DNA of 64,000 nt, from contig CAJXQR010000001.1 of the NCBI GenBank assembly GCA_913058345.1, positions 124,001 to 188,000 on the forward strand, given 5' to 3'. Both the position numbers and the translations under genes were made by a program. The notes below the pieces were generated by a model, which searched no databases, was not told where the DNA came from, and was given only the letters and a program-made list of their open reading frames with translations. Positions 3,329 to 18,762 of this stretch are shown here, in pieces; the first letter of the stretch is position 1, and every line of letters begins with the position of its first letter. The DNA is from an uncultured Gammaproteobacteria bacterium. Its GTDB lineage: Bacteria; Pseudomonadota; Gammaproteobacteria; Pseudomonadales; Porticoccaceae.

Positions 3329-3367
3329 TAGCGACTTCTCTTTCCATTTCCATTGGTGTTTCCTCTT

Positions 3368-4858
3368 ATGACTGTTCGCACGCGCATCGCGCCTTCCCCG
3401 ACGGGTGACCCCCACGTCGGTACCGCTTATATCGCCCTGTTTAACCTCTGTTTTGCGCGACAACACCAGGGCCAGTTTATTCTACGGATAGAGGACACGG
3501 ATCAGGTGCGCAGCACTGCAGATTCTGAAAAAATGATTTTCGACTCCCTGCGCTGGCTCGGTCTAAGCTGGGATGAAGGCCCCGATGTAGGTGGCGATTT
3601 CGGCCCCTATCGTCAAAGTGAACGGATGGAGATTTACCGCCAATACGTGGACCAGCTCGTTGATGATGGCTACGCCTTTTACTGTTTTGCAACCCCGGCT
3701 GAACTCGATGATATGCGTCGTGAGCAAATGGCGCGGGGTGAAACACCCAGATATGATGGCCGCAGTTTGGGCTTGAGTGCTGCTGAGGTTGAAACGCGCC
3801 GTGCCGCTGGTGAACCGTATGTCATTCGCATGAAAATACCGGAAGAGGGTAGCTGCATATTCCAGGATATGCTGCGCGGTGAGATCGAAATTCCCTGGTC
3901 ACAGATCGATATGCAAGTGCTTCTCAAAGCCGATGGCATGCCGACTTATCATCTTGCCAACGTAGTTGATGATCATCTGATGGCAATTACCCATGTGATA
4001 CGCGGTGAAGAGTGGATCAACTCCGCCCCTAAGCACCAGTTACTGTACCACTATTTCGGCTGGACCATGCCGGAGCTGTGCCATATGCCACTACTACGCA
4101 ATCCAGATAAAAGTAAACTCAGCAAACGGAAAAACCCCACCAGTATTAACTTTTACAAGGCAATGGGTTACCTACCTGCTGCTGTCATTAACTACCTCGG
4201 GCGAATGGGTTGGTCGATGCCCAATGAAGAGGAAAAGTTCTCCTTGGCCGACATGATTGCTAATTTTGACATCAATCACGTTCACCTCGGTGGTCCGGTG
4301 TTTGACGTTGAAAAACTCGACTGGCTCAATGGTCGCTGGATACGTGAAGACCTCGACAACAATAGCTTTGCTCAGGGTATGGCTGAGTGGGCAATTAATG
4401 AGCAACGCTTGATCGAATTTATTCCGTTGATTAAAGAGCGCGTTGAAAAATTCAGTGACGTAGCCCCATTGGTGGCCTTTCTTCTCTCAGGCTTGCCAGA
4501 GCTGAGCGAAGAAAGCTTTGACAACAAAAGCCTTGATAACGCGCAAATGCAAAAAATTCTACAGTACAGTGTCTGGCGACTGGATGAGCTGCAAAACTGG
4601 GAGCGGGACAGTCTGTACTCCGCATTGTCTTCATTGGCTACAGCCCTGGATTTAAAGCTCAAAATATTTCTGGCACCCTTGTTTGTTGCCATAGCGGGTA
4701 GCCCCTCAGCGCCACCCCTGTTTGATTCCATGGTCGTCCTAGGCCCCGACATGAGTCGTGCTCGCGTGCGTCACGGTCTCGCTGTACTGGGTTCGCCATC
4801 CAAAAAGCAGTTAAAGAAGCTTGAAAAAGAATATCGACAAATAAGTGCTAAAATTTAA
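3368..4858 (+). CDS. gltX: Glutamyl-tRNA synthetase
   Basis: Class I aminoacyl-tRNA synthetase charging tRNA-Glu. The HIGH signature appears as HVGT at residues 16-19, after the family motif APSPTGDP. The KMSKS signature appears as KLSKR at about 249-253. The ATG at 3368 gives MTVRTRIAP, the canonical GltX start; the frame is open to 3353 but that extension is not family-like. About 496 aa, normal for a full-length bacterial enzyme with an anticodon-binding C-terminal domain. It is followed on the same strand by tRNA-Ala, which has its own promoter. Confidence 0.97.
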
Positions 4859-4910: not shown

Positions 4911-4986
4911 GGGGCCTTAGCTCAGCTGGGAGAGCGCAACACTGGCAGTGTTGAGGTCAGCGGTTCGATCCCGCTAGGCTCCACCA
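4911..4986 (+). tRNA. tRNA-Ala (anticodon GGC)
   Basis: Complete 76-nt cloverleaf. The acceptor stem is GGGGCCT with AGGCTCC, the anticodon stem CAACA with TGTTG, the loop CTGGCAG with anticodon GGC at 4944-4946, the T loop is standard, and CCA is encoded. It reads GCC alanine codons. Its 3' part, from the anticodon loop to CCA and beyond, is duplicated at 8791, marking the edge of the tandem integron units. Confidence 0.97.
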
Positions 4987-5010
4987 AAACGTTGTTATAT
5001 TAACGACTTG

Positions 5011-5039
5011 AAAGCTCGCTTAATCGCGGGCTTTTTTTT
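5011..5039 (+). terminator. Rho-independent terminator after tRNA-Ala
   Basis: Stem AGCTCGC with GCGGGCT (one G-T pair) around TTAATC, then a run of eight T. A near-identical copy follows the partial tRNA at about 8860-8886. Confidence 0.85.
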
Positions 5040-5137
5040 GTCCGTGGTTTTAAGTTCATATTAAGCCCATTTCATACCAAGATTTCGATGTCTTCCTAAA
5101 ACCTTGTGACTTCATTGAACAGGCGATTTCGTTACAA

Positions 5138-5215
5138 GGTTAACGCTGAGCGCACCGCTGGCCTTGACGTAGAGGATAGAAGACAAGGTCATCTATGTGC
5201 CGCGTAGTGTTAAAA
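5138..5215 (-). repeat. attC-like site of cassette 1-4 (end of array 1)
   Basis: Read on the minus strand: R'' box TTTTAAC (5209-5215) and R' box GTTAACC (5138-5144), 78 bp, with internal complementarity such as CCTTG with CAAGG. The R'' box is the exact complement of GTTAAAA, which opens this same cassette at 5934-5940. That match identifies the cassette boundaries. Confidence 0.75.
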
Positions 5216-5216
5216 T

Positions 5217-5918
5217 TTATCTGTCCACCCTAGTAATTTCACCCTCGAGCAGCTTCGCATAAAAGCCCAACCTCGGTAATGAATAATGAACGTTGAAAGC
5301 AGACACATACACACCAAATATCACGATGGTGATAAAGAGCGTGATATTTTCATTTTGCTCTGACATGGCGGCTATGACCAATGTTATGAGGCCGGGTACG
5401 ATGCCAACCTTATCCAAGGCTCCGGCCAGAGCACCTACTCTAGTTTCAATGGCCGCCTGCTGAGCAGAAATCCTATTCTTGGCCAGCTGCAACGATTCAA
5501 TCGAATGCTTTTGAAAAGCTTTTACTAACGCCGAATCTGCTGAAGTACTTTGACAAATACCATCAATAACCACCTGATTCGAATTCTTGAAAAATTGCAT
5601 AAACTCTGTGCGATCAGCATATATTTCCATGAGTTGAACAGTCGGCAGCGCGACATACCAAAAGAGCAATAAAAGAAGTAATGAAAATTTGAAATATTCT
5701 GACGACAAGCCTGCGAAATAAACCATGGCCGAGAAGCTTAGGAATATCAGAAAAGGAAAGAACATGTATCGCACAAGAATTTTTCGCGATTGAGGATGCT
5801 TTAATGAGGGGCACTGAAATAAAGGGACTGCGACGTTTTTCTCGTAAACTGAAATCGCCGCGTAAATATCGGTAAGTTGTGACTTGAGATCTTTACTGTC
5901 ATCTGATTGCTTTGACAC
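5217..5918 (-). CDS. Cassette-borne hypothetical membrane protein
   Basis: 233 aa, family not recognised. Two hydrophobic segments lie close together at about 53-95, and two more at about 170-215. Between them is a soluble helical stretch rich in Gln, Ala and Ser that may be coiled coil. The GTG start at 5918 is preceded by a strong AGGGGG Shine-Dalgarno that lies within the first 20 bp of the cassette. The gene ends directly at its attC R'' box. It is AT-rich compared with the flanking core genes, as is usual for integron cassettes. Function unknown. Confidence 0.75.
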   Translation of the reverse strand: MSKQSDDSKDLKSQLTDIYAAISVYEKNVAVPLFQCPSLKHPQSRKILVRYMFFPFLIFLSFSAMVYFAGLSSEYFKFSLLLLLLFWYVALPTVQLMEIYADRTEFMQFFKNSNQVVIDGICQSTSADSALVKAFQKHSIESLQLAKNRISAQQAAIETRVGALAGALDKVGIVPGLITLVIAAMSEQNENITLFITIVIFGVYVSAFNVHYSLPRLGFYAKLLEGEITRVDR

Positions 5919-5933
5919 CTACTACCCCCTGAA

Positions 5934-6017
5934 TTTTAACGCTCACATAAAAGGCGAGCGTTTTTCGCGAGTCCAGCCTACGTTTTTTGTGGAAGATTTT
6001 TGATGTGTTTGTTATGC
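5934..6017 (-). repeat. attC-like site of cassette 1-3
   Basis: On the minus strand, R'' box GCATAAC (6011-6017, overlapping the stop codon of the upstream gene) and R' box GTTAAAA (5934-5940), 84 bp. A hairpin AACGCTC with GAGCGTT lies near the R' end. The R' box opens the next cassette. Confidence 0.65.
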
Positions 6018-6551
6018 ATTGCTATAACCTAGCACCTGCTCTACAGAAATACAGGCTGATTTAGATATATAGGCACCCATGTTTTTAAATATGGAATATA
6101 GTGATTGGCCATATTGATTTATAAATAGTGGATTATCCGTAGCTATTTCAATTTCGTTTGCCACTGTTAATTCGCAAAAATCATGAAGCTGCTGTGAACC
6201 TAACTGGAACGATTGACCAGTAAATCTATTTTTGAATCGTGGCTCAGACACAACGCCAATTTGAGGCCAAAAGTGTTCTCTATCGCAAGCGCAGTATAAG
6301 TAAACTATATCTTCTGCCTCATTACCGATTATTTGAGAAATTTTATCTCGCTGCTCTATGGAGACTATTATTTCATTGAATCCCGCAGTGCCATAAGTAG
6401 CATGATACAACCCAGCATCTTGCAATATGGCTGAGGCAGACCACTCCTTAAGGAGTTTTTGAGTGCCTCGTAGATGATCAATTAAATTTCCATCTATATG
6501 ATCAAAATCTCCAGCACCTAATTTTGAAAGCTCCTCAAATTTCTCATTCAT
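6012..6551 (-). CDS. Cassette-borne DUF6817-like (HD-like) protein
   Basis: 179 aa, soluble. The N-terminal part HIDGNLIDHLRGT, then AGLYHATYGT, resembles the DUF6817 family, a distant HD-like fold with His and Asp residues suited to metal binding; family assignment is from memory of the motif. The C-terminal half is less conserved. The stop codon TAA is part of the R'' box of the following attC, a tight gene-attC junction typical of cassettes. Its true role is unknown. Confidence 0.7.
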   Translation of the reverse strand: MNEKFEELSKLGAGDFDHIDGNLIDHLRGTQKLLKEWSASAILQDAGLYHATYGTAGFNEIIVSIEQRDKISQIIGNEAEDIVYLYCACDREHFWPQIGVVSEPRFKNRFTGQSFQLGSQQLHDFCELTVANEIEIATDNPLFINQYGQSLYSIFKNMGAYISKSACISVEQVLGYSNA

Positions 6552-6559
6552 TGCTATGT

Positions 6560-6669
6560 GCCTACGATTGCATGTCTATGTAAGAGGCTGTTTTGGAGTT
6601 GATGCTTTTGTGGTATTAAGAACAAAAGAATCGACGTAAAAACAGTCCTTCTGGACATATTTGTTAAGC
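6560..6669 (-). repeat. attC-like site of cassette 1-2
   Basis: On the minus strand, R'' box GCTTAAC (6663-6669) is the exact complement of GTTAAGC, which opens this cassette at 7176-7182. An imperfect inverted repeat pairs the CTGTTTT side with AAAACAG. The R' box is degenerate (CGTAGGC at 6560-6566, where GTTRRRY is expected). About 110 bp. Confidence 0.65.
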
Positions 6670-6670
6670 G

Positions 6671-7162
6671 TTACTTTAACTTTTCCAATTCTCTTTGCAT
6701 ATCTTGCTGTAACTCTAAGAGTTTTGGTTGAACACTCGTTAGCTGAGCTTCTGCTACTTTAGTTATCCCTGCCATTACCTGAGGAAACTTCTGCAAAAAT
6801 GCTTTTCCAGCGCCTGTAGAATAAAATTTAAGAATGTCCTTTAGCTCCTCGTTCGAAAAGTTAGATGCATATAACTCAGCATACTTTTCCTTAACTTTTG
6901 GATCTTTAAATGTATTAAATATGAGAGCCATAGTGTCATTCAGATACTTTTCCAATATTGGTTGCGCCTCTTCCGGAAGATCTAGCTGGGACAACTGCCG
7001 TTCTTGCATGCCTCTAATATTTTCAGCCATAGTCTTTAACTGGGAGTCCATATCCATAACAACCAGCAACTCTCTTGCTAGGTCAATTTGTTTTTTCTCT
7101 GCATATGCACTGACAGAAAAAAATAGGAATAATATCAGTAAGTATTTCAAATTTATCTCCAT
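6671..7162 (-). CDS. Cassette-borne secreted DUF2059-domain protein
   Basis: 163 aa. An N-terminal signal peptide (about 1-21, ending SAYA) points to export to the periplasm. The remainder is helical and charged and contains the DUF2059 pattern, in which a helical core with FSNEELKDILKFYSTGAG is followed by a segment ending in a coiled-coil-like tail (LLELQQDMQRELEKLK). The domain's function is not established. The gene fills its cassette, starting about 14 bp after the GTTAAGC core site and stopping next to its attC. Confidence 0.8.
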   Translation of the reverse strand: MEINLKYLLILFLFFSVSAYAEKKQIDLARELLVVMDMDSQLKTMAENIRGMQERQLSQLDLPEEAQPILEKYLNDTMALIFNTFKDPKVKEKYAELYASNFSNEELKDILKFYSTGAGKAFLQKFPQVMAGITKVAEAQLTSVQPKLLELQQDMQRELEKLK

Positions 7163-7175
7163 GATTGGTTTTGAT

Positions 7176-7265
7176 GCTTAACGCCCACAACAGCGGACGT
7201 GTTTTAAGTTGATTGAGCGAAGCGAAAGCAGCTTAAAGCCGTTCCGCTGATTGTGTTTGTTAGGG
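7176..7265 (-). repeat. attC site of cassette 1-1
   Basis: On the minus strand, R'' box CCCTAAC (7259-7265) and R' box GTTAAGC (7176-7182), 90 bp. Inverted arms include GCGGA with TCCGC and an inner pair around AAGCTGC. The R'' box complements GTTAGGG at 7743-7749, the start of this cassette. This is the clearest attC of array 1. Confidence 0.85.
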
Positions 7266-7730
7266 CTATTTGAGCACATAAAGACTGCACTTATGAGCAA
7301 CTTCTTCGATTTCATCCCACCCCTTGCCGGATGGAATAAATATTGGAAATGTGAGGTCGAAATTACCTAAAATAACACAATTCAATTTTTCTGAAGTAAA
7401 TGCATCAAACCTTTCTTCACGGACATTCTTTGTAACAGACTCTTCGCTCAACACTGATACTGAGCTTGATGCCGAGTTATTAATGTTTTGTTTTAAAACT
7501 GATAGACCAAAATCAGCATCTAGTATTTTGAAGAATCGTATAAAATTATTCTCAGACCGTAGGTAATTTTCCCTGTTAGGATCATTCTTTCCTTTGATTG
7601 TTACAAAGGACATCCAATGGTTCGAGGCTTCCTCTGCAGAAAGCCAATGCGAATGAATAGATATACAAGCCGATTTCCATCCCTCTGGAACATCCTCTTG
7701 TAAAAAATCTTCATACTTCAACTGATGCAT
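7266..7730 (-). CDS. Cassette-borne hypothetical protein (first cassette of array 1)
   Basis: 154 aa, soluble, no family recognised, no signal peptide or membrane segment. The composition is mixed, with a Ser-rich stretch in the middle (about 87-100). It is the cassette closest to attI in array 1 and therefore, by integron logic, the most recently inserted one. The start ATG at 7730 is about 13 bp from the core site GTTAGGG, and the stop TAG abuts the attC. Confidence 0.7.
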   Translation of the reverse strand: MHQLKYEDFLQEDVPEGWKSACISIHSHWLSAEEASNHWMSFVTIKGKNDPNRENYLRSENNFIRFFKILDADFGLSVLKQNINNSASSSVSVLSEESVTKNVREERFDAFTSEKLNCVILGNFDLTFPIFIPSGKGWDEIEEVAHKCSLYVLK

Positions 7731-7742
7731 AGCTTCGATGAG

Positions 7743-8065
7743 CCCTAACAGTGAATTATAGAGCCAGTGGCCTTATATCACTTTGGCACTCTCTTCCAGG
7801 AAGTGTGGCAAAGTAATTGGCTATATTGTATTTAAAAACAATAGGTTGGCTGTTTTTTGGTATGCGAGAGACTAACATGCTGCGCCATCCTTAGCTGCGT
7901 TTATATTTGTTCCTAGCCACTTATGATATTCGAGTATTTCTAAAAATCAAGGACTTAGACATTATTTTACTGTGATATAGAGCCAGTGGCTCCTGATCTC
8001 GGGCATGACCCAATTTACAGTCTGCTTAATAATGTATGGGCAAACAGTATTAGCGAGATAGGGTC
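7743..8065. promoter_or_regulatory. attI-like region between cassette array 1 and intI
   Basis: Lies between the first cassette boundary (minus-strand GTTAGGG at 7743-7749) and the intI start. It contains a 14-bp direct repeat (ATAGAGCCAGTGGC at 7758-7771 and 7977-7990) that could hold integrase-binding sites. From about 7775 onward it is homologous to 12574-12851 in unit 2. The cassette promoter Pc and the intI promoter must lie here or inside intI, but no convincing boxes could be assigned. Confidence 0.6.
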
Positions 8066-8706
8066 ATGGATGACATTCGACACAAATTACCCGCCACACC
8101 CATGCGCTTCATCGATTGTTTACGTGTGCCTATAGGGGAGAATGGGTTGGCCTATCGAACTGAACAGACTTACGTCCATTGGATTAAGCGGTTTATACAC
8201 TTTCACAATAGGCGCCACCCTAAAGAGATGGATGCCGCTGAGATTGAAGCATTTTTAAGCCCTATTGGTGTCCAGCTCCATTGCTCGGTTAGCACACAGC
8301 GCATTGCACTAAATGCCCTCGTTTATCTCTACAAGCGATATATGGGGTTAGATATAGGTGATTTGAGTTATTCTTTAGCGAGTGTGCCAAGGCGCTTACC
8401 CGTGGTCTACAGTCGCGATCAAGTTGTCGCGATTTTGGCGCAATTACTCGGTACATACCGCTTACAGGTCGGATTAATGTGCGGCACTGGCCTGCGCAGT
8501 GCGGAGTTACTCTCGTTGCGAGTAAAGGAAATCGATTTTGTAATCGTAATATTTTTGTTGGGGCGGCAAGGGTAATAAAGATCGCACGACGATGTTGTCT
8601 CAGCGTTTAGTACCAGCCCTTGGACGCCAAATAGAGCACGTCAAGAAAAGCGATGAGTAAGATAAGAAGAAAGCTTATGGTGAAGTTTATCTTCCCGACG
8701 CCTTTA
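8066..8706 (+). pseudogene. intI: Integron integrase IntI, frameshifted and truncated
   Basis: Tyrosine recombinase of the integron type. The intact part from ATG 8066 shows the SAM-like N-terminal domain (RTEQTYVHWIKRF, RHPKEMDAAEIEAFL) and the first catalytic Arg region (GTGLRSAELLSLRVKEIDF). Around 8540-8555 the frame is lost, with single-base changes near a run of four G. In another frame the family sequence resumes: GKGNKDRTTML, which holds the beta-strand Lys, then a TAA at 8658-8660, then AYGEVYLPDAF, the segment specific to IntI and absent from XerC/D. Homology ends near 8706. The box II His/Arg and the Tyr nucleophile are missing, so the product cannot be an active integrase. Confidence 0.9.
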
Positions 8707-8790
8707 TATGCTTATATTTAAGCGTTAAAGTTATTATCGTGATGGGTGTTTGTTCGTGTTTTTACATACTTGTTTGTTACTCTCAGAGAT

Positions 8791-8834
8791 TGGCAGTGTT
8801 AAGGTCAGCGGTTCGATTCCGCTAGGCTCCACCA
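8791..8834 (+). pseudogene. Partial tRNA-Ala copy (anticodon loop to CCA)
   Basis: Matches the 3' part of tRNA-Ala from TGGCAG in the anticodon loop through CCACCA, with two differences. The following terminator (about 8860-8886) and roughly 90 bp beyond it are also copied. The 5' half is absent, so it is not a functional tRNA. It marks the junction between the truncated intI and integron unit 2. Confidence 0.92.
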
Positions 8835-8994
8835 AAGCGTTGTTATATTAACGGTTTGAAAGCTCGCTTAATCGCGGGCTTTTTTGTGTCCGTGATTTAA
8901 ATTCCTTTCATACAAAATGTCGGTGTCTTCGTGAAAACCTTGTGGCGTCATAGAGCAGGCAGTTTTGGTTCCTGGCTAATCAAACCAGGTGGCG

Positions 8995-9053
8995 CGTTAA
9001 CAAGCGTTCGGGGGAGGTTCTAGGCCGGAACGCACGTAAGCGACGGGTTAGCT
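8995..9053 (-). repeat. attC site (59 bp) after the ArsN2-like cassette
   Basis: On the minus strand, R'' box AGCTAAC (9047-9053) overlaps the stop codon of the acetyltransferase and R' is GTTAACG (8995-9001). Inner arms are GCGTTC with GAACGC. The length of 59 bp is that of the classical 59-base element. Confidence 0.85.
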
Positions 9054-9479
9054 TGACAATTGCTTGCTCATGAAACAGGAGGATGCTGGGCACAAACCTG
9101 AAAACTGAGCGGTCGTTTTGATAGATTCAGGCGCGCTGTCTCGTTGGTGATGCATATAGCCAAGTCGCTCAAAGAAGTTACTGGCTGTAGTGGTAAGAAG
9201 GAAAAGAGACTCAATGCCCTTTTTTCTCGCCATTTCCTCCGCAAACTGAACTAACAAACGACCGACTCCTAAGCCCCTGATGTTTGAAGTTACAGCTAAA
9301 GAACGTATTAGAGCCACCGTACCGTGTATTTCCAGACCAACAACACCGGTTATGTTTCCGTTACTATGACAGCCATAAAAAAAGAGTGAATCAGATGAAT
9401 CCAAATCTGAAACCAGCAAGTCACAGCGCTTTAAGAGTTCTCGCATCTCGGCGTCTGGTGAAACAGGGACAAATTCCAT
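9048..9479 (-). CDS. ArsN2-type GNAT acetyltransferase (cassette)
   Basis: 143-aa N-acetyltransferase. The GNAT acetyl-CoA loop is IRGLGVGRLLV (about 83-93). The C-terminal pattern TTTASNFFERLGY, APESIKTTAQF and LCPASSCFMSKQL is that of the arsenic-resistance-associated ArsN2 family. Members sit in ars operons, but no other arsenic gene is present here; the gene stands alone in a cassette whose attC begins at its stop codon. Acetyltransferases are among the most common integron cargo. The substrate cannot be stated from sequence. Confidence 0.8.
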   Translation of the reverse strand: MEFVPVSPDAEMRELLKRCDLLVSDLDSSDSLFFYGCHSNGNITGVVGLEIHGTVALIRSLAVTSNIRGLGVGRLLVQFAEEMARKKGIESLFLLTTTASNFFERLGYMHHQRDSAPESIKTTAQFSGLCPASSCFMSKQLSS

Positions 9480-9610
9480 ATTGATACCTATAAAGCCAAG
9501 AGCTCGTTGGTCTCTGGTCGAAACGACTTTTCCAGAAAGGTCGCTTGCTATATCGGCTTGATGATAAACCTATTTCTATCCTCGCTATTATTACTGGACA
9601 CTACGACCAG

Positions 9611-9617
9611 CTCTAAC
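9611..9617 (-). repeat. Cassette core site before the ArsN2-like cassette
   Basis: Minus-strand GTTAGAG matches the GTTRRRY core up to the last base and lies about 130 bp before the acetyltransferase start. The attC of the preceding cassette is not recognisable as a whole, probably through decay. Confidence 0.45.
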
Positions 9618-9692
9618 GCTTAGTTTTGAGGCGTGATCTTAGAGAAGCGTCGAGGTGCGTTCGAGAACAGCCACTGGTGGTGTAATGTTCGC

Positions 9693-10109
9693 TCAATCTG
9701 GTAGCCCCTCGAACCTAGGCACTTGCTCCAACTCCCCATCCCACGCAGCTTTGCTGGATAATAAAATGTGCGCAGTTGGTGGCATAGAAATCTCTGTGTC
9801 CAAACAACCTGCAGGAACCACAAGCAACCCCGCAATCTGAGTATTTGGCAATGCTGAGCCACACAGTGTACAAAAGCTTTTACTATGACGAGTGCCTGGA
9901 AGCGTAAAGGAAGCCACAGCATCCGCGCCCGACCGTCAGACCAATTTAGCTGACTGTGAGAATAGGCTGGCCGCATGAGCCGAACCTGTATCTTTTTGGC
10001 AATGCTGACAATGGCATAGGTAAAAGTTATCGAAATCGCCTTTTATTTCAAAGCTCACGGTGCTACACAAACAGGAACCGAAATGACTCGCCATCAGAGC
10101 TTTTTCCAT
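9693..10109 (-). pseudogene. GFA-family (glutathione-dependent formaldehyde-activating-like) gene, frameshifted
   Basis: The first part, from ATG 10109, reads MEKALMASHFGSCLCSTVSF and continues with the zinc-binding CHCQHCQKDTG to a stop after SAKLV. The second part, in another frame from about 9917, reads ASFTLPGTRHSKSF, CTLCGSALPNT and VVPAGCLDTEISMPPTAHI. Together they form one normal GFA domain of about 135 aa with all its Cys residues, interrupted near 9920-9945. GFA proteins are common cassette cargo. No intact product is expected. Confidence 0.85.
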
Positions 10110-10199
10110 AAGCTGTGGAAGAAGTCCACATAGCTAAGCTGTAGAAAAATAATGTCTTTCACGTAAAATTTCCTCCTCACTATAGATCGGGGTTCTTCT

Positions 10200-10280
10200 G
10201 CATAACAAACATGGTTTTCCCCACACAGGCATGACCCCATAGATTTTTCATTTCACTCGCCTATGTATAAGACCTGAGTT
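10200..10280 (-). repeat. Probable degenerate attC after the DUF1287 gene
   Basis: A core-like GTTATGC (minus strand, 10200-10206) and an imperfect inverted repeat (ATAGGCGAGTGA with TCATGCCTGTG) lie between the DUF1287 stop and the GFA gene. The R'' box is not clear, and the site's orientation is uncertain because TAACAAAC stands at the R' end. Confidence 0.45.
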
Positions 10281-10891
10281 CAGGCCTTGCTAATTGTATT
10301 GTTATATTTCTCTGGCACGTATTTGAAATGACCAGTGATTTTGTAACCAAATAACATGTCTTGAAGTTCGGGGCCGCTACCAATGTTATGCACAATCATT
10401 GGGTTACCGGTAGCAGGATTGATTTTTTCAGTAACAATGCCTATGTGCGGTAAATTACCTGGCAGTACCCAGGCGACAAGATGACCTGGCTTGTAGTCTT
10501 TGGCATCAGTTGAAATAGTAAGCTCTTTACTATGACGTTTAAAGAAAACCTGAAGAATAGGTACACGCCTATGATCTATATTTTTGTCGGGCCGCTTAAG
10601 CCCCCATATTCTTTTTGAAGGATACTCACCAAAATTAACTTTTATATTTTCGTGTGTTAATTTCTGGAGATCGATGCCAAGCGTACGATAAGAACGTATC
10701 ACGACATCTGTGCAGACGCCTATTTCCTTCGGCACGTCACCCCACGGATAGTCGATGCGAATGTAGGCCCCATCGTACCGAATGGCATGCTTCGTTCTTT
10801 CGTGCGCCGCGCTTACGATATCTTGATAAAAACTTAATGCGGATACATTTAGCGAAGCGATAGAGGCCAATACGAAAAGTATTTTACGCAC
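10280..10891 (-). CDS. Secreted DUF1287 protein (cassette)
   Basis: About 203 aa with a signal peptide (1 to about 20, ending NVSALS). The DUF1287 core is visible: YPWGDVPKEIGVCTDVVIRSYR with a Cys in the position expected of an NlpC/P60-like nucleophile, and later HLVAWVLPGNLPHIGIV with a His. DUF1287 proteins are thought to belong to the NlpC/P60-like peptidase/amidase superfamily; the role here is inferred. The GTG at 10891 is chosen because GGAG lies 7 nt upstream and the signal peptide begins there. It follows the HD gene by only 37 bp without an attC, so both probably share one cassette. Confidence 0.8.
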   Translation of the reverse strand: MRKILFVLASIASLNVSALSFYQDIVSAAHERTKHAIRYDGAYIRIDYPWGDVPKEIGVCTDVVIRSYRTLGIDLQKLTHENIKVNFGEYPSKRIWGLKRPDKNIDHRRVPILQVFFKRHSKELTISTDAKDYKPGHLVAWVLPGNLPHIGIVTEKINPATGNPMIVHNIGSGPELQDMLFGYKITGHFKYVPEKYNNTISKA

Positions 10892-10928
10892 GAAATTCTC
10901 CGTAATTTGTCTCCACGAGCAGCTTTTG

Positions 10929-11513
10929 TCAGGAGGCATCTAGCCAACCTTGCTCGACAGCATATTCGAGTTTATCAATAAACCAGTTGTATATTTCTAA
11001 ACTTTCATTTTCAATAAATTGATGCATTTTTAACACTTGGTTCTTATGTATACCGTTGTCTTTCCATGCACGGCCTTCGCTCGTAATGTTATGAAGAAAA
11101 GGCAACAAGCGATCGATGACCTTTAGTAGTTTGGCTTCTTTGCTACCACCGGCTTCTTGCTCTTCCCAAAGCTCGACAATATCTCCAATTGGGTTGCCCG
11201 GGTGCGAGGCGATTTGCTTTACGCTCTCACGCTCTTTAACGTGAGCGGTACCTCGTTTACTGCTATAAAGAAATGTGTCTCCAGCGCCTATTTCACCGAG
11301 ATCATGAAGTAATGCAAGCTTGATGAGTTTCGGGACATCGTATTCGTCCTTCAGCATTTCCGCGAAGGCCCAGCAGGCCATTGCCAGATGCCATGAGTGT
11401 TCAGCTGAGTTTTCGACTCTCTCCCCACCATTGATGTAGGTTCGGCGATTAACAGATTTCAATGCGTCCAATTGAATCATGAAATCTGATATTTTTGAGA
11501 TTCTATCTATCAA
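10929..11513 (-). CDS. HD-domain phosphohydrolase, YfbR/HDDC2-like (cassette)
   Basis: 194 aa. HD motifs: NSAEHSWHLAM (first His), LLHDLGEIGAGD (HD pair) and KVIDRLLPFLHN (final Asp). This is the pattern of YfbR/HDDC2-type 5'-deoxynucleotidases, so a nucleotide phosphohydrolase is likely. The TTG start at 11513 is supported by AGGAG 7 nt upstream, and this Shine-Dalgarno overlaps the recombination core GTTAGGA at 11522-11528. Its stop is followed by the DUF1287 gene without an attC. Confidence 0.82.
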   Translation of the reverse strand: MIDRISKISDFMIQLDALKSVNRRTYINGGERVENSAEHSWHLAMACWAFAEMLKDEYDVPKLIKLALLHDLGEIGAGDTFLYSSKRGTAHVKERESVKQIASHPGNPIGDIVELWEEQEAGGSKEAKLLKVIDRLLPFLHNITSEGRAWKDNGIHKNQVLKMHQFIENESLEIYNWFIDKLEYAVEQGWLDAS

Positions 11514-11521
11514 GTATTTTC

Positions 11522-11602
11522 TCCTAACACTTAAATATAGGGTGGGCCGCTTTTGGCGTATCCCGGTGAGCGGTAGCGAATAACTTGATTTTTTTGTTAG
11601 CT
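11522..11602 (-). repeat. attC site after the GNAT cassette
   Basis: On the minus strand, R'' box AGCTAAC (11596-11602) overlaps the stop codon of the acetyltransferase and R' is GTTAGGA (11522-11528), 81 bp. Inner arms are CCGCTCA with related GC-rich bases near GCGGCC. Confidence 0.75.
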
Positions 11603-12013
11603 GTGAATATTTTCATCGCGCTCAAGAACCCAACAACGTGAATTATTTGAAAACCCAATGTGATCATAATATAAGTTGGCTGCTGGAGCCGAAATGAGAA
11701 TTAGCTTACAACGTGGCCCAAGTTGTGCTTGCGTCAGAATTTGTAGTTGTTTGCCAATGCCCAACTGCTGATATTTCTTAGAAACAGCCAGATCTGACAG
11801 ATAGCATGCATAGTGGAAATCTGTCATGCAGCGAGAAATACCGACCAGTTTTCTTGAGTCCCACGCAGTAACTGTAAGATTACTATTTGAAAGCATGCCT
11901 TCTATGCATTCACGATCCTCAATAGGACGACGTTCACCTAATGTTGAATCAGCTAATAACGAAATAAATTGCTCTGTACTGATTGAGTGGTTGATTTTGT
12001 ATTCAATGCTCAT
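11597..12013 (-). CDS. GNAT-family N-acetyltransferase (cassette)
   Basis: 138 aa, single GNAT domain. Motif A is LSDLAVSKKYQQLGIGKQLQ (about 72-91), with the acetyl-CoA pyrophosphate loop QQLGIGK. Motif B is near ANLYYDHIGF. The substrate is unknown. The stop codon TAA is part of the attC R'' box. Upstream the GrpB remnant ends 42 bp away, and no recognisable attC remains between the two. Confidence 0.82.
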   Translation of the reverse strand: MSIEYKINHSISTEQFISLLADSTLGERRPIEDRECIEGMLSNSNLTVTAWDSRKLVGISRCMTDFHYACYLSDLAVSKKYQQLGIGKQLQILTQAQLGPRCKLILISAPAANLYYDHIGFSNNSRCWVLERDENIHS

Positions 12014-12055
12014 AAATTCCTTTTTCCACGTCGTCTTTGATCTTGTAGGGTTACA

Positions 12056-12568
12056 TCACCCTGAATAATGTTTAGATAAAGCCCGTTGAATAAAAGGCCA
12101 TTTTTTCTCTGTGTAGGCTTCTCGGTCTTCTTTATGAAAATTGGCTAGGTCACGCTTTAGCTTTGCATATTGATAAAAAACTGATTTATCCGAGCGAAGT
12201 AAATCACGAAATATTATACGTTCTTGCCAGAGCGGACTTTCAAATGGTATTAAATGAAGATGATGAGTTCTAAATGCATCTGAAGGTTTGCAGAACCAAT
12301 GCATTACTTCAGTTTTATAAGGCGAATATTCGTATCCGTCTTCAATAAGAACTTCAATGGCTGGCTTTGAACTCTCGAGTGATTTAACACCAAACATAAT
12401 ATCAATGACTGGTTTGGCAACCATCCCTAAAACCGCAGTACTGCCCACATGTTCTATGCCTCCATAATTCCAAGAGTCTATGATAGACATCAAGTGTTCT
12501 TTTTCCTTCTCGAATTTTTCAGGCTATGAAGAATCATATTCTTCGAGAATGACAGATGCGATTTTCAT
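12056..12568 (-). pseudogene. GrpB/UPF0157-family nucleotidyltransferase-fold gene with an early nonsense codon
   Basis: From ATG 12568 the frame reads MKIASVILEEYDSS, then TAG at 12526-12524, then PEKFEKEKEHL and an open frame to 12056. In GrpB proteins a Trp stands at the position of this stop (EYDSSWPEKF expected), so TGG to TAG explains it. The rest shows the family motifs IEHVGSTAVLGM, AKPVIDIMFGV and THHLHLI. An internal start at 12493 or 12490 could give a shortened protein without the first strand, which is doubtful. It is the cassette nearest attI in array 2. Confidence 0.85.
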
Positions 12569-12573
12569 ATGCT

Positions 12574-12905
12574 TTGGCATTCTCTTCCAAGAGGAGTGGC
12601 TAAATAATTAGTTATATTGTATTTAAAACAACAACTTGTCTGCTTTATTTGGTAGGGGAGGCTAGCATGCTGTGCCAGCTTGAGCTGCGTGTATATTTTC
12701 TGGGCGATTTCATAGTCAAGCATTTTTAAAAATCAATAACTTAGAGATTATGTTTTTGTGATAGAGGGTCAGTGGCTCCTGATCTGGAGCTTGACCCAAT
12801 AGACAACCTGTTTAAGGCAGTATGTGCCGACAGTGGTGTCGAAACAGAGTTATGGATGACACCTAATTACACATGACTCGGCACCCCTACGCGTTTTATC
12901 ACTTT
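12574..12905 (+). repeat. Second attI-like region and 5' fragment of intI
   Basis: Homologous to 7775-8115. Shared blocks include the TCTTCCA stretch, GTTATATTGTATTTAAAA, the CTGATCT region and ATGGATGACA at the intI start (12852). Only about 55 bp of intI remains, and it carries a stop at the fifth codon. A perfect 6+5-bp interrupted palindrome lies at 12766-12797. Confidence 0.8.
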
Positions 12906-12920
12906 GTTCAGAGTAAAGAC

Positions 12921-13682
12921 TTAACCCGGTAAGTAGAGGCCGCCATTGACGTGTAGGGTTTGGCCCGTGACATAGGAAGATTCTTCTGAGCAAAAGAAGT
13001 TCACTACACCGGCGATTTCCTCTGGTTTACCGACGCGCTCTGCCGGTACGCGCGCTTCCATTTTGTCAAATTCGTCCTGAGGCAGTATGCCGCGCAGGCG
13101 TTCGTGCCATATGATGCCTGGTGCAATGGCGTTAACGGTGACGCCATGTTTCGCGAGATCCAGTGCCACAGACCGCGTGTAGCCCGTGACGGCGGCTTTG
13201 GCAGCGGCATAAGGGGATTGGCCGACGCCAGGGTGGTAGGCATACATCGAGGCAAAGTTGACCACGCGGCCGAAGCCTTTATCGACCATGGCCTTGCTGA
13301 AAGCGCGGGTTAAATAAAAGGTGCCATTGGCGTTAACGGCCATTACCCGATCCCAGGTTTTTGAGTCTAGCTCCCAGGGCTTATCATTGCCCTGAATACC
13401 AGCGTTGTTAATAAGGTAGGCGATATGTATGTTTTCTTCTGCCAGGTTTTTGGCCAGAGCATCGACTTGTTCTTCCTTGACCACATCAAGGGGATAGCCG
13501 GTAAACATAGGTTTTTGCGCGTCATTGAGCTCAGCTTTTATCCAGGGGTCGATGTCAGTGACGCGGCGATCTGTGCCGACAACGGGAATACCCGCTGCAA
13601 TTAGCCGCTTAACGATGGCCGTCCCCAGGCCACCAATTGCGCCAGTTACCAATGCGTGTCCTCTACTCGTAGTACTATTCAT
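12921..13682 (-). CDS. Short-chain dehydrogenase/reductase, FabG-like
   Basis: 253-aa NAD(P)-dependent oxidoreductase. The Rossmann cofactor motif TGAIGGLG is near the N-terminus, followed by NNAG. The catalytic Ser (FASMYAY) and YxxxK (YAAAK) are in place, and the end HVNGGLYLPG is typical. The acidic/Arg segment TDRR after strand 2 is compatible with either cofactor. The ATG at 13682 is preferred because GGAAAAG precedes it. Its stop is 16 bp from the intI remnant, so it flanks rather than belongs to the integron. The substrate is unknown; 3-oxoacyl or hydroxyacid types are the usual guess. Confidence 0.9.
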   Translation of the reverse strand: MNSTTSRGHALVTGAIGGLGTAIVKRLIAAGIPVVGTDRRVTDIDPWIKAELNDAQKPMFTGYPLDVVKEEQVDALAKNLAEENIHIAYLINNAGIQGNDKPWELDSKTWDRVMAVNANGTFYLTRAFSKAMVDKGFGRVVNFASMYAYHPGVGQSPYAAAKAAVTGYTRSVALDLAKHGVTVNAIAPGIIWHERLRGILPQDEFDKMEARVPAERVGKPEEIAGVVNFFCSEESSYVTGQTLHVNGGLYLPG

Positions 13683-14057
13683 AGTCTTTTCCAGGTTTCT
13701 CAATATGTCGATTAAAGTGAATAGATTGCCCTAGATCGGCTCGGGCAATGATAAATTTGCAAAGGGATTTGACCAGTAAACGGGCCAAAATGGCAAGCCT
13801 TCATAAGATCTGATGTAAAACCAGACTGCTGGTAAGAGCCATAGAGTCGATGTCGTGTTTGCTGAACAGGTTTAAAATCAGAGCCCCTAAACCGGCACTG
13901 ACTGGTCCATGGTCTGTGTCATCTATTGCACCAAGCCTTTGACTATCAAGGAACACTGGCAGATATTATGCTTGCTAGCACAGTGGTGCTGGTTAAAATG
14001 CCTTGACCCAAAAAGCCAATATCTGAAAAGTAGAGTCGTCGAATCCCGCGAGGTGAC
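13683..14057. other. Intergenic region between divergent SDR and phosphatase-kinase genes
   Basis: Holds the promoters of both genes. No convincing -35/-10 pair, hairpin, RNA gene or ORF with coding character was seen. Confidence 0.5.
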
Positions 14058-15797
14058 ATGTCAGAGCAGTCGCTAGAACACTTAAGTTTTACAGTCGCCC
14101 AGCATTCTGTGGCCGGTGTTAAACCGCAAAATGAAGATGCGATTGGCATCCGTATTCCCCAGGGGTTAACGTTGACTAACAAGGGAGCGGTGGCAGTGAT
14201 TGCCGACGGGGTGAGTGCCGCAGAGGCGGGCAAGGAAGCCAGCGAGACTTGCGTTCATAATTTCCTTTCCGACTACTATTCTACTCCCGATAGTTGGGGC
14301 GTAAAAAAATCGACAACCCAGGTGCTTACCGCGCTCAATCGCTGGCTTTTCAGTCAGGGGCGTAGTTTTAGCGATGCTCAAAAGGGCTATGTCAGCACAT
14401 TCAGCAGCGTCATTTTTAAATCGCAAACAGCACATATCTTTCATGTAGGCGATTCTCGTATTTACCGTTTGCGTGATAATGATCTTGAGCAATTGACCCG
14501 TGACCACACCACATTTATCAGTGAAGAACAGTCTTACTTAGCGCGAGCAATGGGCCTGGACGTAAAGCTCGATGTCGACTATCGCAGTGTCGACCTGGAA
14601 CTTGGTGATATCTTTTTGCTGACTACCGATGGTATTCACGACTTTGTTAAAGACAGAGACTTGAGTTCAGTGCTGCGCATATTGGTGGATGAGTCAGCAG
14701 AATCGGTGTTCGATGACTGTTGCAGAAAATTGGTAAACATTGCTCTCGATAATAAAAGCCGTGACAACTTAAGCTGCCAGATTCTACGTGTTGATAGTTT
14801 CCCCAAACAAAGTATTGATGATATTAGTCACAAATTGTCAAAGCTACCCTTTCCTCCAACTCTTGAGCCTGGAATGGTTCTCGATGGCTATCGTATCGAG
14901 CGCGAGTTGCATGCCAGTAGTCGTAGCCAGGTGTATTTGGTCTGTGACATCGACACCAGCCAGCGTTATTGCATGAAAACCCCCTCGGTAAATTTTGACG
15001 ACGATCTGGCCTATATTGACCGTTTTGTCATGGAAAGCTGGATAGGTCATCGCATTGCCAGCCCCCATGTCGTCAAGGTTATCGATAGCGGTAAATCAAA
15101 ATCGTGTTTGTATTATCTCACCGAGTATATTGATGGTATTACTCTGGAGAGATGGATAAAAGAGAACCCCAATCCGGCCGTGCAAGATGTGATTTTGTTG
15201 GTGCAGCAAATTGTGAAAGGAATACGAGCTTTTCACAATAGAGAAACGCTGCATCAAGATATTAAGCCCGGCAATATTCTTATTGACCGTAATGGACAGG
15301 TTAAAATTATTGATTTTGGCTCCTGTTTTATTCAGGGGATTGCTGAAATTGCCACACCTTTAGAGAGTCAAGGCATACTGGGTACAGCTGCTTATTCGGC
15401 CCCTGAAGTGGTTCTTAATGCTAAAAGTACTGTGCAATCTGATATTTTCTCACTGGCTGTTATTGTGTATGAAATGCTGACAGGAGAGCCCCCGTTTTCT
15501 GGCAAGCTTGAAGAGTGTCGTACATCAAAAGCCTATTTAAAAACAAAATATATCCCTTGCTATGAGATCAACCCCCTAATACCTATCTGGATAGATGGTG
15601 CCGTAAAAAAAGGCCTGCGCTTTAGCCCAGAGCGGCGCTACGAAGATGTTTCTGAATTTCTACATGAGCTGCAAAAGCCCAACCCAATCTATAAAAAAGG
15701 GGAGGGTGGTGCGCTACTCGAGACTAATCCCTTATTATTTTGGCAGGTTTTATCTGGGCTACTGTTTATTAGTCTTTGCCTTTCTTTACTGTTCTGA
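14058..15797 (+). CDS. Bifunctional PP2C phosphatase / Ser-Thr protein kinase, membrane-anchored
   Basis: 579 aa with two opposing activities in one chain. PP2C domain (about 5-240): NEDAIG, VIADGVS, FHVGDSRIYRLRD, LLTTDGIHD and DNLSCQ supply the metal-binding Asp residues. Kinase domain (about 275-545): ATP-binding Lys in YCMKTP, catalytic loop LHQDIKPGNIL, DFG as IIDFGS, APE as YSAPEV, then SDIFSLAVIVYEML. The glycine loop is degenerate (ELHASSRSQVYLV) and HRD is HQD, so activity may be weak or atypical. A single TM helix ends the chain (about 558-577). It stands alone, without an operon partner. Confidence 0.9.
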   Translation: MSEQSLEHLSFTVAQHSVAGVKPQNEDAIGIRIPQGLTLTNKGAVAVIADGVSAAEAGKEASETCVHNFLSDYYSTPDSWGVKKSTTQVLTALNRWLFSQGRSFSDAQKGYVSTFSSVIFKSQTAHIFHVGDSRIYRLRDNDLEQLTRDHTTFISEEQSYLARAMGLDVKLDVDYRSVDLELGDIFLLTTDGIHDFVKDRDLSSVLRILVDESAESVFDDCCRKLVNIALDNKSRDNLSCQILRVDSFPKQSIDDISHKLSKLPFPPTLEPGMVLDGYRIERELHASSRSQVYLVCDIDTSQRYCMKTPSVNFDDDLAYIDRFVMESWIGHRIASPHVVKVIDSGKSKSCLYYLTEYIDGITLERWIKENPNPAVQDVILLVQQIVKGIRAFHNRETLHQDIKPGNILIDRNGQVKIIDFGSCFIQGIAEIATPLESQGILGTAAYSAPEVVLNAKSTVQSDIFSLAVIVYEMLTGEPPFSGKLEECRTSKAYLKTKYIPCYEINPLIPIWIDGAVKKGLRFSPERRYEDVSEFLHELQKPNPIYKKGEGGALLETNPLLFWQVLSGLLFISLCLSLLF

Positions 15798-16180
15798 CAG
15801 CGTGTTATTTTCTTGAACCCCAGCCTTCTATGGGGGAATCAATAAGCGAATCAACAGGCCAATAAAATCTCTGAATAACTTAGGATTTTAATAGTTAATA
15901 ATGTGTTTTCGTTTCGCTTATTAGTAGGGTGGTACTTTGATCATGAACGCGTTAAAGCAATGATACTGGATTGTCAGTGTTGGTTTTTCCTGGTTCATCA
16001 AGGTATTCACCTACGCAAAGTATTTTCTCTATGCTTTATACGGTGTCTCTGGCTGTACGCCTTTCACCAAAGTGAGTTTAATCGAGCCTTTCTTGTGCGG
16101 CACCAACGAGGTATAGCACTGTCGTAACGGTCCTTTGCTTGATCGCTTGTTTTGCAAAGTGTTGAAGGCATCATCCAGTA
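15798..16180. other. Intergenic region between converging genes
   Basis: Short open frames here lack ribosome sites and coding character. No clear terminator hairpin with a T-run was found. Confidence 0.45.
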
Positions 16181-17230
16181 TTACCGTTCTACCGGATAAC
16201 CCGCGGCGATCCAGTTGGGCATGCCGGTATGGCTAACACAAATGAGATTGTTAAGCCCAATAAGTGATAAATTCGTCAGGGCTGTTTGAGCCCGTCGTCC
16301 AGAGCGGCAGTACATGTACACTTTGCTGTAGGCTTTTAGTTCTTCTGCATGATTACTTTCTGTACCTAGAGGAATGTTGCGACTACCCGGTACATGCCCT
16401 TCGGCAAACTCTTCAACACGCCGGTTGTCGACAATGATTTCGTTTTTGCCGAGTTGTTGCCAGGCCTTGTGCAAATCAGTCATTGAAAAGTCATCGTGGA
16501 CATAACGTCTGGGATTGTAATCGACACCAACGGCAACATTAGCGGGTACCGCTTCGTTAATTTTCTTGGGCATATCAAGATTGAGATTGTCCATAATGCC
16601 AATAAAATCGCTGGCACTTCGTCCGCCGCCTAGTCGGGGGTTCCAGCGTTTTTCTTCGCCAATGCTGGAGCTAGTGCGACCCTTGTAGTCGTGGGCAGGG
16701 TAGACAATCGTGTTGTCAGGGAGAGAGAACAGCTTATGGATCACATTGTCGTAGAGCTGTTGTGAGTCGCCTTGTTGAAAGTCCGTCCTGCCACAGCCGC
16801 GGATTAAAAGGGTGTCACCAGTAAAGACCTTGTCATCCACGTGGTAACTCATGCAACCGCTGGTATGGCCGGGCGTGGCGAGGGCTTTAATGGTGTAGTT
16901 GCCGAGTTTGAGCTCATCTCCATCCGTCAGGGCAAGATCAATGGCCTCAATACCCGCATCTTTGCTAAAGACAATTTTTGCTCCAGTTTTCTGACGCAGT
17001 AAGCCGGCAGAGGTAACGTGATCAGCGTGGGCATGGGTTTCGCAGACATAAAGTAACTCAATGCCGAGTTCCTCAACATATTGAAGATCGCGCTCAAACT
17101 GTTCAAGCACCGGGTCAATCAGTGCGCCTTCATGTGTTGCTGTATCGACGAGCAGATAAGTGTAAGTAAAGCTATCTCGATCGAATAGCTGACGGCATAG
17201 CAAAGTAGAAGTGGAAAAGTCCGTTGTCAT
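16181..17230 (-). CDS. Persulfide dioxygenase-rhodanese fusion (ETHE1-like)
   Basis: 349 aa. The N-terminal metallo-beta-lactamase domain carries the iron-binding motif THAHADH at 65-71, a His in ATPGHTSGC and an Asp in FTGDTLLIRGCGRTDFQ, the pattern of ETHE1-type persulfide dioxygenases that oxidise glutathione persulfide to sulfite. The C-terminal rhodanese domain has the active-site loop CRSGRR with Cys308. Fusions of this kind couple persulfide oxidation with sulfur transfer. A sulfite-exporter-family gene and cysB occur 28 kb away. No sqr gene is adjacent. Confidence 0.9.
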   Translation of the reverse strand: MTTDFSTSTLLCRQLFDRDSFTYTYLLVDTATHEGALIDPVLEQFERDLQYVEELGIELLYVCETHAHADHVTSAGLLRQKTGAKIVFSKDAGIEAIDLALTDGDELKLGNYTIKALATPGHTSGCMSYHVDDKVFTGDTLLIRGCGRTDFQQGDSQQLYDNVIHKLFSLPDNTIVYPAHDYKGRTSSSIGEEKRWNPRLGGGRSASDFIGIMDNLNLDMPKKINEAVPANVAVGVDYNPRRYVHDDFSMTDLHKAWQQLGKNEIIVDNRRVEEFAEGHVPGSRNIPLGTESNHAEELKAYSKVYMYCRSGRRAQTALTNLSLIGLNNLICVSHTGMPNWIAAGYPVER

Positions 17231-17340
17231 AGCGGGTCCTCATACCCTTGTTGTATAACCAGCATAGAGAGGATGAGGTGCAATTTAAAGCCCTTAAAAG
17301 AATGCCGTTAAAAATGACTGAGCCGGGCTGGCTTTGCTGC

Positions 17341-18762
17341 TCAGTAAACACCGATATCGAGATAAGAACGGGAAATTTTGTCGATGGCGACAACATAAGA
17401 CGCTGTACGATAATCACTGACTTTGTCGTTGCTGTCGAATACCGCTTTAATTTGCTGAAATGATAAGCGCATGGTGTCATCAAGGCCTGAGCGAACAAGG
17501 TCCAGTTCGTCGGCACCTTGTACTAGTTCTTTTTGTATCCACTCGGGAATCGGTTGCTCGGTCATGCTTTGAATAGCGCTAAGCATATGGCCGCCACGCA
17601 TTTCGTCGTAACGCCTTTCCATGCGGCCAAAACGAATATGGGCGAGGTTGCGTACCCACTCAAAATAGGAAACCGTAACACCACCGGCGTTGACGTAGGC
17701 ATCGGGAAGAATGGTGATACCGCGTCGACGGAGTATTTCGTCCGCTTCAAAAGTAATGGGGCCGTTAGCCGCTTCGACGATAAGTGCTGCTTTAATTCGA
17801 CCAGCGTTGTCAGGTGTTATCTGCCCCTCCATAGCGGCGGGTATCAGAATGTCACAATCCATTTCCAGTAGCTTTTTACCATCGGCGACAAAGTGAGCAT
17901 CGGGGTAGCCGATAATGGTCTTGTGCTCGACGATGTAGTCGTTAATAGCCTGGATATCGAGGCCAGCCTCTTTAAATAGAGCCCCATCTTTTTCAATGAT
18001 AGAGGTAATGAGGCAGCCATCTTCTTCTTGCAGCAGTTTAGCCGCGTGATAACCGACATTTCCAAGACCTTGTATCACTACCCGTTTGCCACTGAGAGCC
18101 CCCGTAAAGCCGGCCTTGACAACACAGTCCAGGTGGCGAAAAAATTCACGCATGACGTAGACCACGCCGCGTCCTGTGGCCTCGGCACGGCCTCGAATAC
18201 CCCCGTGGGCGACAGGTTTTCCGGTAACACAACCGGTGTAGTTAACATCTTCAGGGTGGAGGTGTTTGTAGGTATCGGCAATCCAGGCCATCTCACGTTC
18301 ACCAGTTCCCATATCTGGGGCGGGCACGTTGGTGGCCGGGCTGAGAAAACCTTTACGTATGAGCTCACGGGCAAAGCGCCGAGTAATTTTTTGCATATCA
18401 TCACGGTTGTATCTGCCAGGGTCAATCAATAACCCACCTTTTGACCCACCGAAGGGTACGTCGACAATGGCGCATTTGTAGGTCATTAGTGCCGCCAGTG
18501 CTTCCACTTCATCTTTATCGACAATAGTGGCGTAGCGAATGCCACCTTTAGAGGGAAGCCTGTGACTACTATGGACAGAGCGCCAGCCGGTAAACACTTC
18601 AATTTTGCCATTAATTTCAACCGGGAAATTAACTTCTAGTGTTGCTGTGCACGCCTTAATAGCAGTTGCGATACCTGGATCAATGGTAAGCACCTCAAAA
18701 GCGCGGTCCGCCATGTGATTGACACTTTCAGTGAAAGATAAAGTTCTTCGTTGATTTGACAT
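17341..18762 (-). CDS. Glu/Leu/Phe/Val dehydrogenase family, glutamate dehydrogenase
   Basis: 473 aa; reversible oxidative deamination of glutamate to 2-oxoglutarate. The substrate site has PSKGGIRYA, the catalytic Lys region is TYKCAIVDVPFGGSKGG, and the active Asp lies in VPAPDMGTGEREM. The nucleotide-binding loop is VVIQGLGNVGYHAA, with Glu at the following strand end (IIEKDG), suggesting NAD preference. The length suits the short 'GDH1'-like bacterial/archaeal type rather than the 1600-aa type. It lies 110 bp upstream of the persulfide dioxygenase on the same strand and may be cotranscribed with it. Confidence 0.92.
   Translation of the reverse strand: MSNQRRTLSFTESVNHMADRAFEVLTIDPGIATAIKACTATLEVNFPVEINGKIEVFTGWRSVHSSHRLPSKGGIRYATIVDKDEVEALAALMTYKCAIVDVPFGGSKGGLLIDPGRYNRDDMQKITRRFARELIRKGFLSPATNVPAPDMGTGEREMAWIADTYKHLHPEDVNYTGCVTGKPVAHGGIRGRAEATGRGVVYVMREFFRHLDCVVKAGFTGALSGKRVVIQGLGNVGYHAAKLLQEEDGCLITSIIEKDGALFKEAGLDIQAINDYIVEHKTIIGYPDAHFVADGKKLLEMDCDILIPAAMEGQITPDNAGRIKAALIVEAANGPITFEADEILRRRGITILPDAYVNAGGVTVSYFEWVRNLAHIRFGRMERRYDEMRGGHMLSAIQSMTEQPIPEWIQKELVQGADELDLVRSGLDDTMRLSFQQIKAVFDSNDKVSDYRTASYVVAIDKISRSYLDIGVY

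Follow-up and report, generated by a model that had tools for sequence, protein, structure and literature searches.

Two tandem decayed integron units at a tRNA-Ala gene in a Porticoccaceae genome: probable remains of tRNA-targeting islands

How does a chromosomal integron come to lie against the 3′ half of a tRNA gene, and twice in a row? The question is raised by a 64,000-nucleotide stretch (the window; G000:C1:124001-188000) of an uncultured Porticoccaceae genome, G000 (3.53 Mb, 22 contigs), in which two decayed integron units follow one another behind a tRNA-Ala gene, between 4943 and 12905. An earlier note had proposed such a tandem, and its layout, its tRNA boundary and the decay of the integrase gene intI are borne out by the repeats and intI scores reported below. 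With a probability of roughly 0.64, we read both units as the remains of tRNA-targeting mobile islands that carried an integron as cargo and were placed in tandem by accretion of separately evolved units. Homologues of the DNA just before 8791 were sought in 38 genomes, and its words were compared with 250 loci; among the relatives, G001 belongs to the same genus as G000, and G017 to the same family. Many of the genomes compared are metagenome bins with contigs breaking off inside arrays, so absences in relatives are weak evidence.

Repeats at the anticodon loop and contents of the two units

The features that border the tandem are the following.

3353-4858, gltX, upstream of tRNA-Ala(GGC) (TIGR00464, 471 bits)
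4911..4986, + strand, complete tRNA-Ala(GGC) (ARAGORN)
4943..5053, + strand, left repeat copy: tRNA 3′ half from the anticodon loop, CCA and terminator (93% to 8791-8901)
8791..8901, + strand, displaced tRNA-Ala 3′ half and terminator, attR-like (alignment, pattern scan)

The segments 4943-5053 and 8791-8901 show 93% identity over 111 nt. The tRNA 3′-end pattern occurs twice in the window, against 0.00 occurrences expected from 100 shuffles, so the repeat is not due to chance. Beyond the tRNA, identity between the flanks of the two units is 92% in 4987-5053 and drops to 74% in 5054-5138. Each unit had been described as starting with a tRNA 3′ end; this holds for the second, which starts with a half (8791), but the first starts at a complete gene. 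A tRNA gene with its displaced 3′ half in direct orientation is the arrangement of a tRNA genomic island.

In alignment, the tRNA-Ala halves of the window (8791), of G000 contig C4 and of G017 C26 start at one and the same point, in the anticodon loop. Exact repeats also start there at other tRNAs: 51 bp for a CAT tRNA of G010, 47 bp for tRNA-Met of G017, 67 bp for tRNA-Leu of G000 and, across two contigs, 44 bp for tRNA-Pro in G017 and 59 bp for tRNA-Leu in G002. In G017, just 24 bp of a decayed Leu pair match exactly. The repeats start with ACTCAT, ATTCAT, ACTTAA or TGGGGG. These starts bear on the idea that the integron integrase itself carried whole integrons into tRNA genes. IntI sites have a GTT core motif, which the repeat starts lack, and P4-type integrases of their own lie near the border in the elements of G010 C12 and of the G000 C4 tRNA-Leu gene; we hold the idea to be very improbable, even though in the window, as in G017 C4, no recombinase other than an intI remnant was found between the tRNA ends, and this remnant lies close to the right border.

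Between the borders, unit 1 runs from the terminator and a 150-bp flank through minus-strand cassettes and attI to an intI remnant:

5095..5138, + strand, probable decayed tRNA-Leu(TAA) 3′ half, distal end of array 1 (uncertain; by eye from alignment)
5140..5215, − strand, attC-like fold adjoining the flank (uncertain; fold scans)
5217..5918, − strand, cassette open reading frame (ORF), 233 aa, without NCBIfam match
5936..6017, − strand, attC (model R1, 47.9 bits, training sequence)
6012..6551, − strand, cassette ORF, DUF6817
6671..7162, − strand, cassette ORF, DUF2059
7178..7265, − strand, attC (model R1, 40.8 bits, training sequence)
7266..7730, − strand, first cassette ORF of array 1, without Pfam match
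7745..8003, no strand assigned, attI region of unit 1 (14-copy alignment)
8066..8717, + strand, intI remnant, about aa 1-217, frame broken (profile match and intact G017 IntI)
8718..8790, no strand assigned, joint from intI remnant to displaced tRNA half

Unit 2 repeats this order with the tRNA-Ala 3′ half, terminator, flank, a cassette set of its own, its attI and an intI stub of about 50 bp:

8931..8978, + strand, second decayed tRNA-Leu-like half (uncertain; by eye from alignment)
9048..9479, − strand, cassette ORF, GNAT
10280..10939, − strand, cassette ORF, DUF1287
10929..11513, − strand, cassette ORF, HD domain
11524..11602, − strand, attC (model R1, 36.8 bits, training sequence)
11597..12013, − strand, cassette ORF, GNAT
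12056..12493, − strand, cassette ORF, GrpB
12572..12790, no strand assigned, attI region of unit 2, decayed on the cassette side (76% to attI 1)
12852..12905, + strand, intI start remnant, about 50 bp (read from sequence)
12921-13703, SDR gene, directly after the unit 2 intI remnant

The predicted attI of unit 1 adjoins intI, as in an integron, and its homologue in G017 C9 sits upstream of an intact intI. The unit 1 intI remnant scores 129 bits with TIGR02249 (cut-off 265), has a second piece in another frame, and matches the intact G017 IntI at 66%, then 58%; with a sub-threshold score and a broken frame, it does not count as a functional intI. Cassette sites were called with an attC covariance model, R1, which recovers sites outside its training set in loci L022, L177 and L081 and so has a certain power. 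It made no call at 5140-5215, and several unit 2 cassette borders have no match to it. The probable Leu half at 5095..5138 has much better preserved counterparts in G017 (L080) and in G002 C21.

Divergence between the two units

Was one unit duplicated, or did two elements insert at the same tRNA? The earlier note had offered both. Beyond the tRNA end, the units share one block at 86% identity (7781-7837 versus 12572-12628) and one at 76% (7926-8075 versus 12712-12861), and the two attI regions are 76% identical over 218 columns. The differences are unevenly spread. Between the two units, 2 of 44 sites are different in the tRNA half and 5 of 62 in the terminator (92-96% identity), compared with 20 of 77 in the distal flank. 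Pooled, this makes 7/106 for the tRNA half and terminator versus 72/295 for the distal flank and attI, with the attI share rounded from percentage identity (Fisher 2.9e-5). With G001 as the reference, such contrasts are weak (p 0.048 for the terminator, p 0.07 for the distal flank). Between unit 1 and G001, identities are 100% for the half, 79% for the terminator, 87% for the distal flank and 86% for attI.

Because the integron bodies differ more than the tRNA-near tract, the bodies probably separated before that tract was last shared. A tandem duplication of one unit in this lineage, with the arrays then diverging by cassette exchange and unit 2 decaying faster, would account for the common order and orientation, and for the grouping of attI 1, attI 2 and three G001 copies in one supported clade (97/95). 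It does not sit well with the pooled contrast, nor with an attI 1 that is closer to the three G001 copies (86-88%) than to attI 2, and in G001 the contig bearing that genome's own unit 1 attI and intI gave no tRNA-Ala half. We consider duplication quite unlikely; these comparisons are better accounted for by the accretion of two units, whether or not gene conversion took part, than by a single recent duplication.

Comparable loci in relatives

Similar arrangements occur at other tRNAs. In G010 C12, an element lies between exact 51-bp copies of a CAT tRNA half. Read from the tRNA, it contains a Leu half, then an attC-like trace, an intI that covers aa 65-326, a rep-like gene (520 aa; REP_ORF2-G2P, 27.1 bits, slightly below cut-off), a 264-aa gene and a P4-type integrase of 451 aa (PF00589 and Arm-DNA-bind_3), and the displaced tRNA half follows. 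ARAGORN calls this tRNA Met; we take it to be Ile2. In G017 C4, from another genus, the 47-bp exact tRNA-Met half repeat surrounds opposite-strand, attC-bounded cassettes and an intI N-terminus (aa 1-171, then about 34 unrelated residues) that ends about 215 bp from the displaced Met half, an anatomy close to that of unit 1. In G000 itself, the 67-bp exact repeats at a tRNA-Leu of C4 bound an element with an integrase, a GPA-type rep and a 1111-aa gene; two ORFs and an attC-like site beyond the displaced Leu half make up a probable cassette array. An attC, included in the model training set, also lies about 85 bp beyond a displaced Leu half in G002 C11.

Half-tRNA/terminator modules also stand ahead of non-integron genes, at tRNA-Ala of G006, at tRNA-Pro of G002 and on C4 of G000. 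Behind the G006 module is a 1412-aa gene, to which the G002 tRNA-Pro gene is 77% identical over 1102 aa. As the same modules precede unrelated cargo, a half-tRNA module need not be the integron's own, and we prefer to see in the tRNA half the edge of an island that targets tRNA genes. The integron boundary that had been noted is real, and it is in this sense that we understand it. As a separate observation, long genes lie behind such modules at tRNA-Ala, Pro and Leu sites (L076, L125, L131, L132); one has a PIN-TPR-GreABC match, and the others look like possible defence genes.

Dispersed modules could also have brought the second integron to tRNA-Ala by homologous recombination or gene conversion, rather than by site-specific integration. 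Similar modules in G000 C4, G017 C26 and G002 C20, the confinement of high similarity to about the first 111 bp, and the permuted core block adjoining unit 2 would all agree with this. The single anticodon-loop start point of the half copies and the exact-repeat-bounded elements with integrases in G010 and G000 C4 argue against it, and we judge it unlikely.

In the sister species G001, the tRNA-Ala contig has cassette-like DNA with one good and one weaker attC, and near its end a transposase-like gene that we read as IS110 type. Contig C50 bears attI and an intI remnant that matches the unit 1 remnant at 94% over 287 bp; a six-residue trace of a rep C-terminus and a further attC come behind this intI. 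A 31-bp shared end suggests that the two contigs join, which would make an orthologue of unit 1 at tRNA-Ala. At tRNA-Pro, C46 starts with a tRNA-Pro half, followed by the same flank, cassettes, attI and genes read as umuDC; C33 ends in a complete tRNA-Pro, with 50 bp in common with C46. On C46, homology to the intI upstream region runs into the genes read as umuDC (L073 1336-1900), and contains what we take to be a LexA-like box.

A search for one-unit or empty sites had also been suggested. The DNA retrieved around the tRNA-Ala of G002, G004, G005 and G006 gave neither attI nor attC; in G004, homologues of window 24549 onward start within about 0.8 kb of this tRNA, and G003 gave no match for tRNA-Ala. 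The core-gene order to the right of unit 2 could not be used as a simple empty site: window 12906-19600 has four blocks in the order B-C-A-D, versus A-B-C-D in relatives, with the break at the end of unit 2, and the SDR region is located elsewhere in relatives.

How often do integrons adjoin tRNAs? Among 18 attI/intI rows in relatives, 17 were inspected (G017 C13 was left out), and 4 of them are at a tRNA or half: G001 C50, by the proposed join, G001 C46, G010 C12 and G017 C4. For two weak rows (L061, L064), what looks like a complete tRNA end is about 1 to 1.5 kb off; in L064 (G032, another genus; about 1500-2940), some 1.4 kb separate a short attI-like match from an end resembling tRNA-Pro(GGG). 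In G000, 4 of the 11 integron or array loci looked at adjoin a tRNA or half (window units 1 and 2, the start of C4, and C7, with a Leu half relic about 215 bp past attI), against none at C4:186 kb, C11, C2, C6, C15, C10 and C19. In named genomes, 80 IntI loci were scanned, 51 by ARAGORN and a strict T-arm scan (3 tRNAs) and 29 by the T-arm scan only (2 signals, L198 and L214, neither adjoining intI). In one of the 80 (L177), a tRNA-Ala that follows gltX lies tail to tail with intI, about 105 bp beyond the match, and in another (L195) a tRNA-Gly lies 212 bp beyond it; in L180, L198 and L214 the tRNA signals are kilobases from intI.

The 259-bp attI region is found at many loci without an adjoining intI, breaking off at nearly the same base, and some copies retain a few bases of the intI start. 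Copies occur in G004, G005, G006, G010, G021 and, in G000, at the following places.

L020 6982-7240
L021 6375-6624
L022 1972-2229

The palindromic ends of this block would suit a transposable miniature inverted-repeat element, a reading set aside as less probable, its place upstream of the intact intI in G017 C9 being that expected of attI. A rep C-terminal motif faces intI or attI tail to tail at 4 of 24 sites; it comprises six residues in L074 and has a looser form in L022. Two further observations concern other integron DNA. A second, intact integron type (L017 995-1975; IntI of 326 aa, 51% to G017 IntI) has TACGTCAGGTGACGTA-like repeats upstream and a contig end 1 kb away; C19 (L018) carries a broken copy, and G002 C18 a 90% relative. 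The largest array seen in G000 is a run of eight attC matches on C2 (L240 5200-9500); the 16 kb retrieved there yielded neither a tRNA half nor attI.

Weighing the reading and its meaning

Several results weigh against islands as the carriers. Neither an integrase nor a rep gene of an island turned up between 4943 and 12905, where the sole recombinase is the intI remnant, so that the integrase expected between the ends of a tRNA genomic island is missing from the window; nor was a tRNA-Ala-specific integrase identified, in a search that was not exhaustive. The segment 8700-8790 matched only itself at E 0.001 in the 38 genomes, and its joint shared nothing beyond chance-length words with the 250 loci. 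To the right of unit 2, where the core-gene rearrangement starts, there is no tRNA half. The attC evidence in the window rests on sequences that trained the model, which included all three sites that it reports there, and is not independent. The comparable loci are themselves incomplete: G010 C12 has an intI without its start, no attI and no cassettes; the attI of G017 C4, at 37-49% identity and with no homology-search match, is not recognisably homologous; and the attC behind the G000 C4 tRNA-Leu element scores weakly (E 0.012 in 21 loci) and is not among the matches of a whole-genome attC scan of G000. The tRNA-adjoining loci are a minority, both in relatives (4/17) and in G000 (4/11); a general link between the IntI family and tRNAs was not found across the 80 loci.

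Under the island reading, islands would have inserted into tRNA genes at the anticodon loop by a tyrosine recombinase, bearing intI, attI and cassettes as cargo. The unit 1 island would span from 4943 to 8790, its left end restoring tRNA-Ala and the old 3′ half being displaced to 8791. A second integron unit placed behind the displaced half would give the tandem at one tRNA, and the alike tRNA-near ends may reflect recent insertion or gene conversion. The integrase and rep of the island, and the end of each intI, would have been lost later. We infer this order, as well as the absent integrase and the past mobility, from the repeats, the integron parts and the similar layouts at other tRNAs.

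In PMC4383910, on tRNA and tmRNA islands (Islander), the anticodon loop is one crossover subsite, and an intact tRNA and a displaced 3′ fragment mark the island ends. The window resembles these islands in its intact tRNA and displaced half, and tandems occur among them; it differs in having no integrase gene between the ends. PAGI-97A of P. aeruginosa (PMC8373256) is a class 1 integron island at tRNA-Pro(ggg), with a P4-type integrase and a 49-bp tRNA repeat at its borders. There too an integron is the cargo of an island; that one is a Tn402-type class 1 resistance integron, whereas the Porticoccaceae loci are of chromosomal type and at more than one tRNA, and in G010 C12 the integron lies beside a rep-like gene. 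Accretion of cis-mobilizable elements (CIMEs; PMC5704250) is like the window in a decayed element with both borders kept and in a tandem at one gene, and unlike it in that here the cargo is an integron and mobilisation in cis is hypothetical. Unit 1 keeps its borders and lacks integration genes, as a CIME does, although such genes are only presumed to have been there. A cryptic prophage with chromosomal-type integron parts shares with the window an integrative carrier and attI without intI; its carrier is a prophage, and the word tRNA is absent from the main text of that paper. A search of the open-licence literature returned no paper joining a chromosomal integron with a displaced tRNA island, and none on integrons in Porticoccaceae. 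Class 1 integrons in tRNA islands are known; the chromosomal-type version is new.

Chromosomal integrons are described as sedentary, and five integron classes, class 1 foremost, as mobilised via insertion into conjugative elements (PMC8618304). We suggest, tentatively and with some doubt, that the Porticoccaceae chromosomal-type integron may be a standing module of small rep-integrase islands, with intI tail to tail with rep, moving among tRNAs (Ala, Pro, Leu, Met and a second CAT) and among species; this would be a non-clinical mobile lineage, for whose scattered attI-only arrays one integrase could act in trans. If tRNA islands have indeed carried a chromosomal-type integron repeatedly, this would be a testable environmental case of integron mobilisation, and would help explain the presence of several related decayed integrons within one genome.

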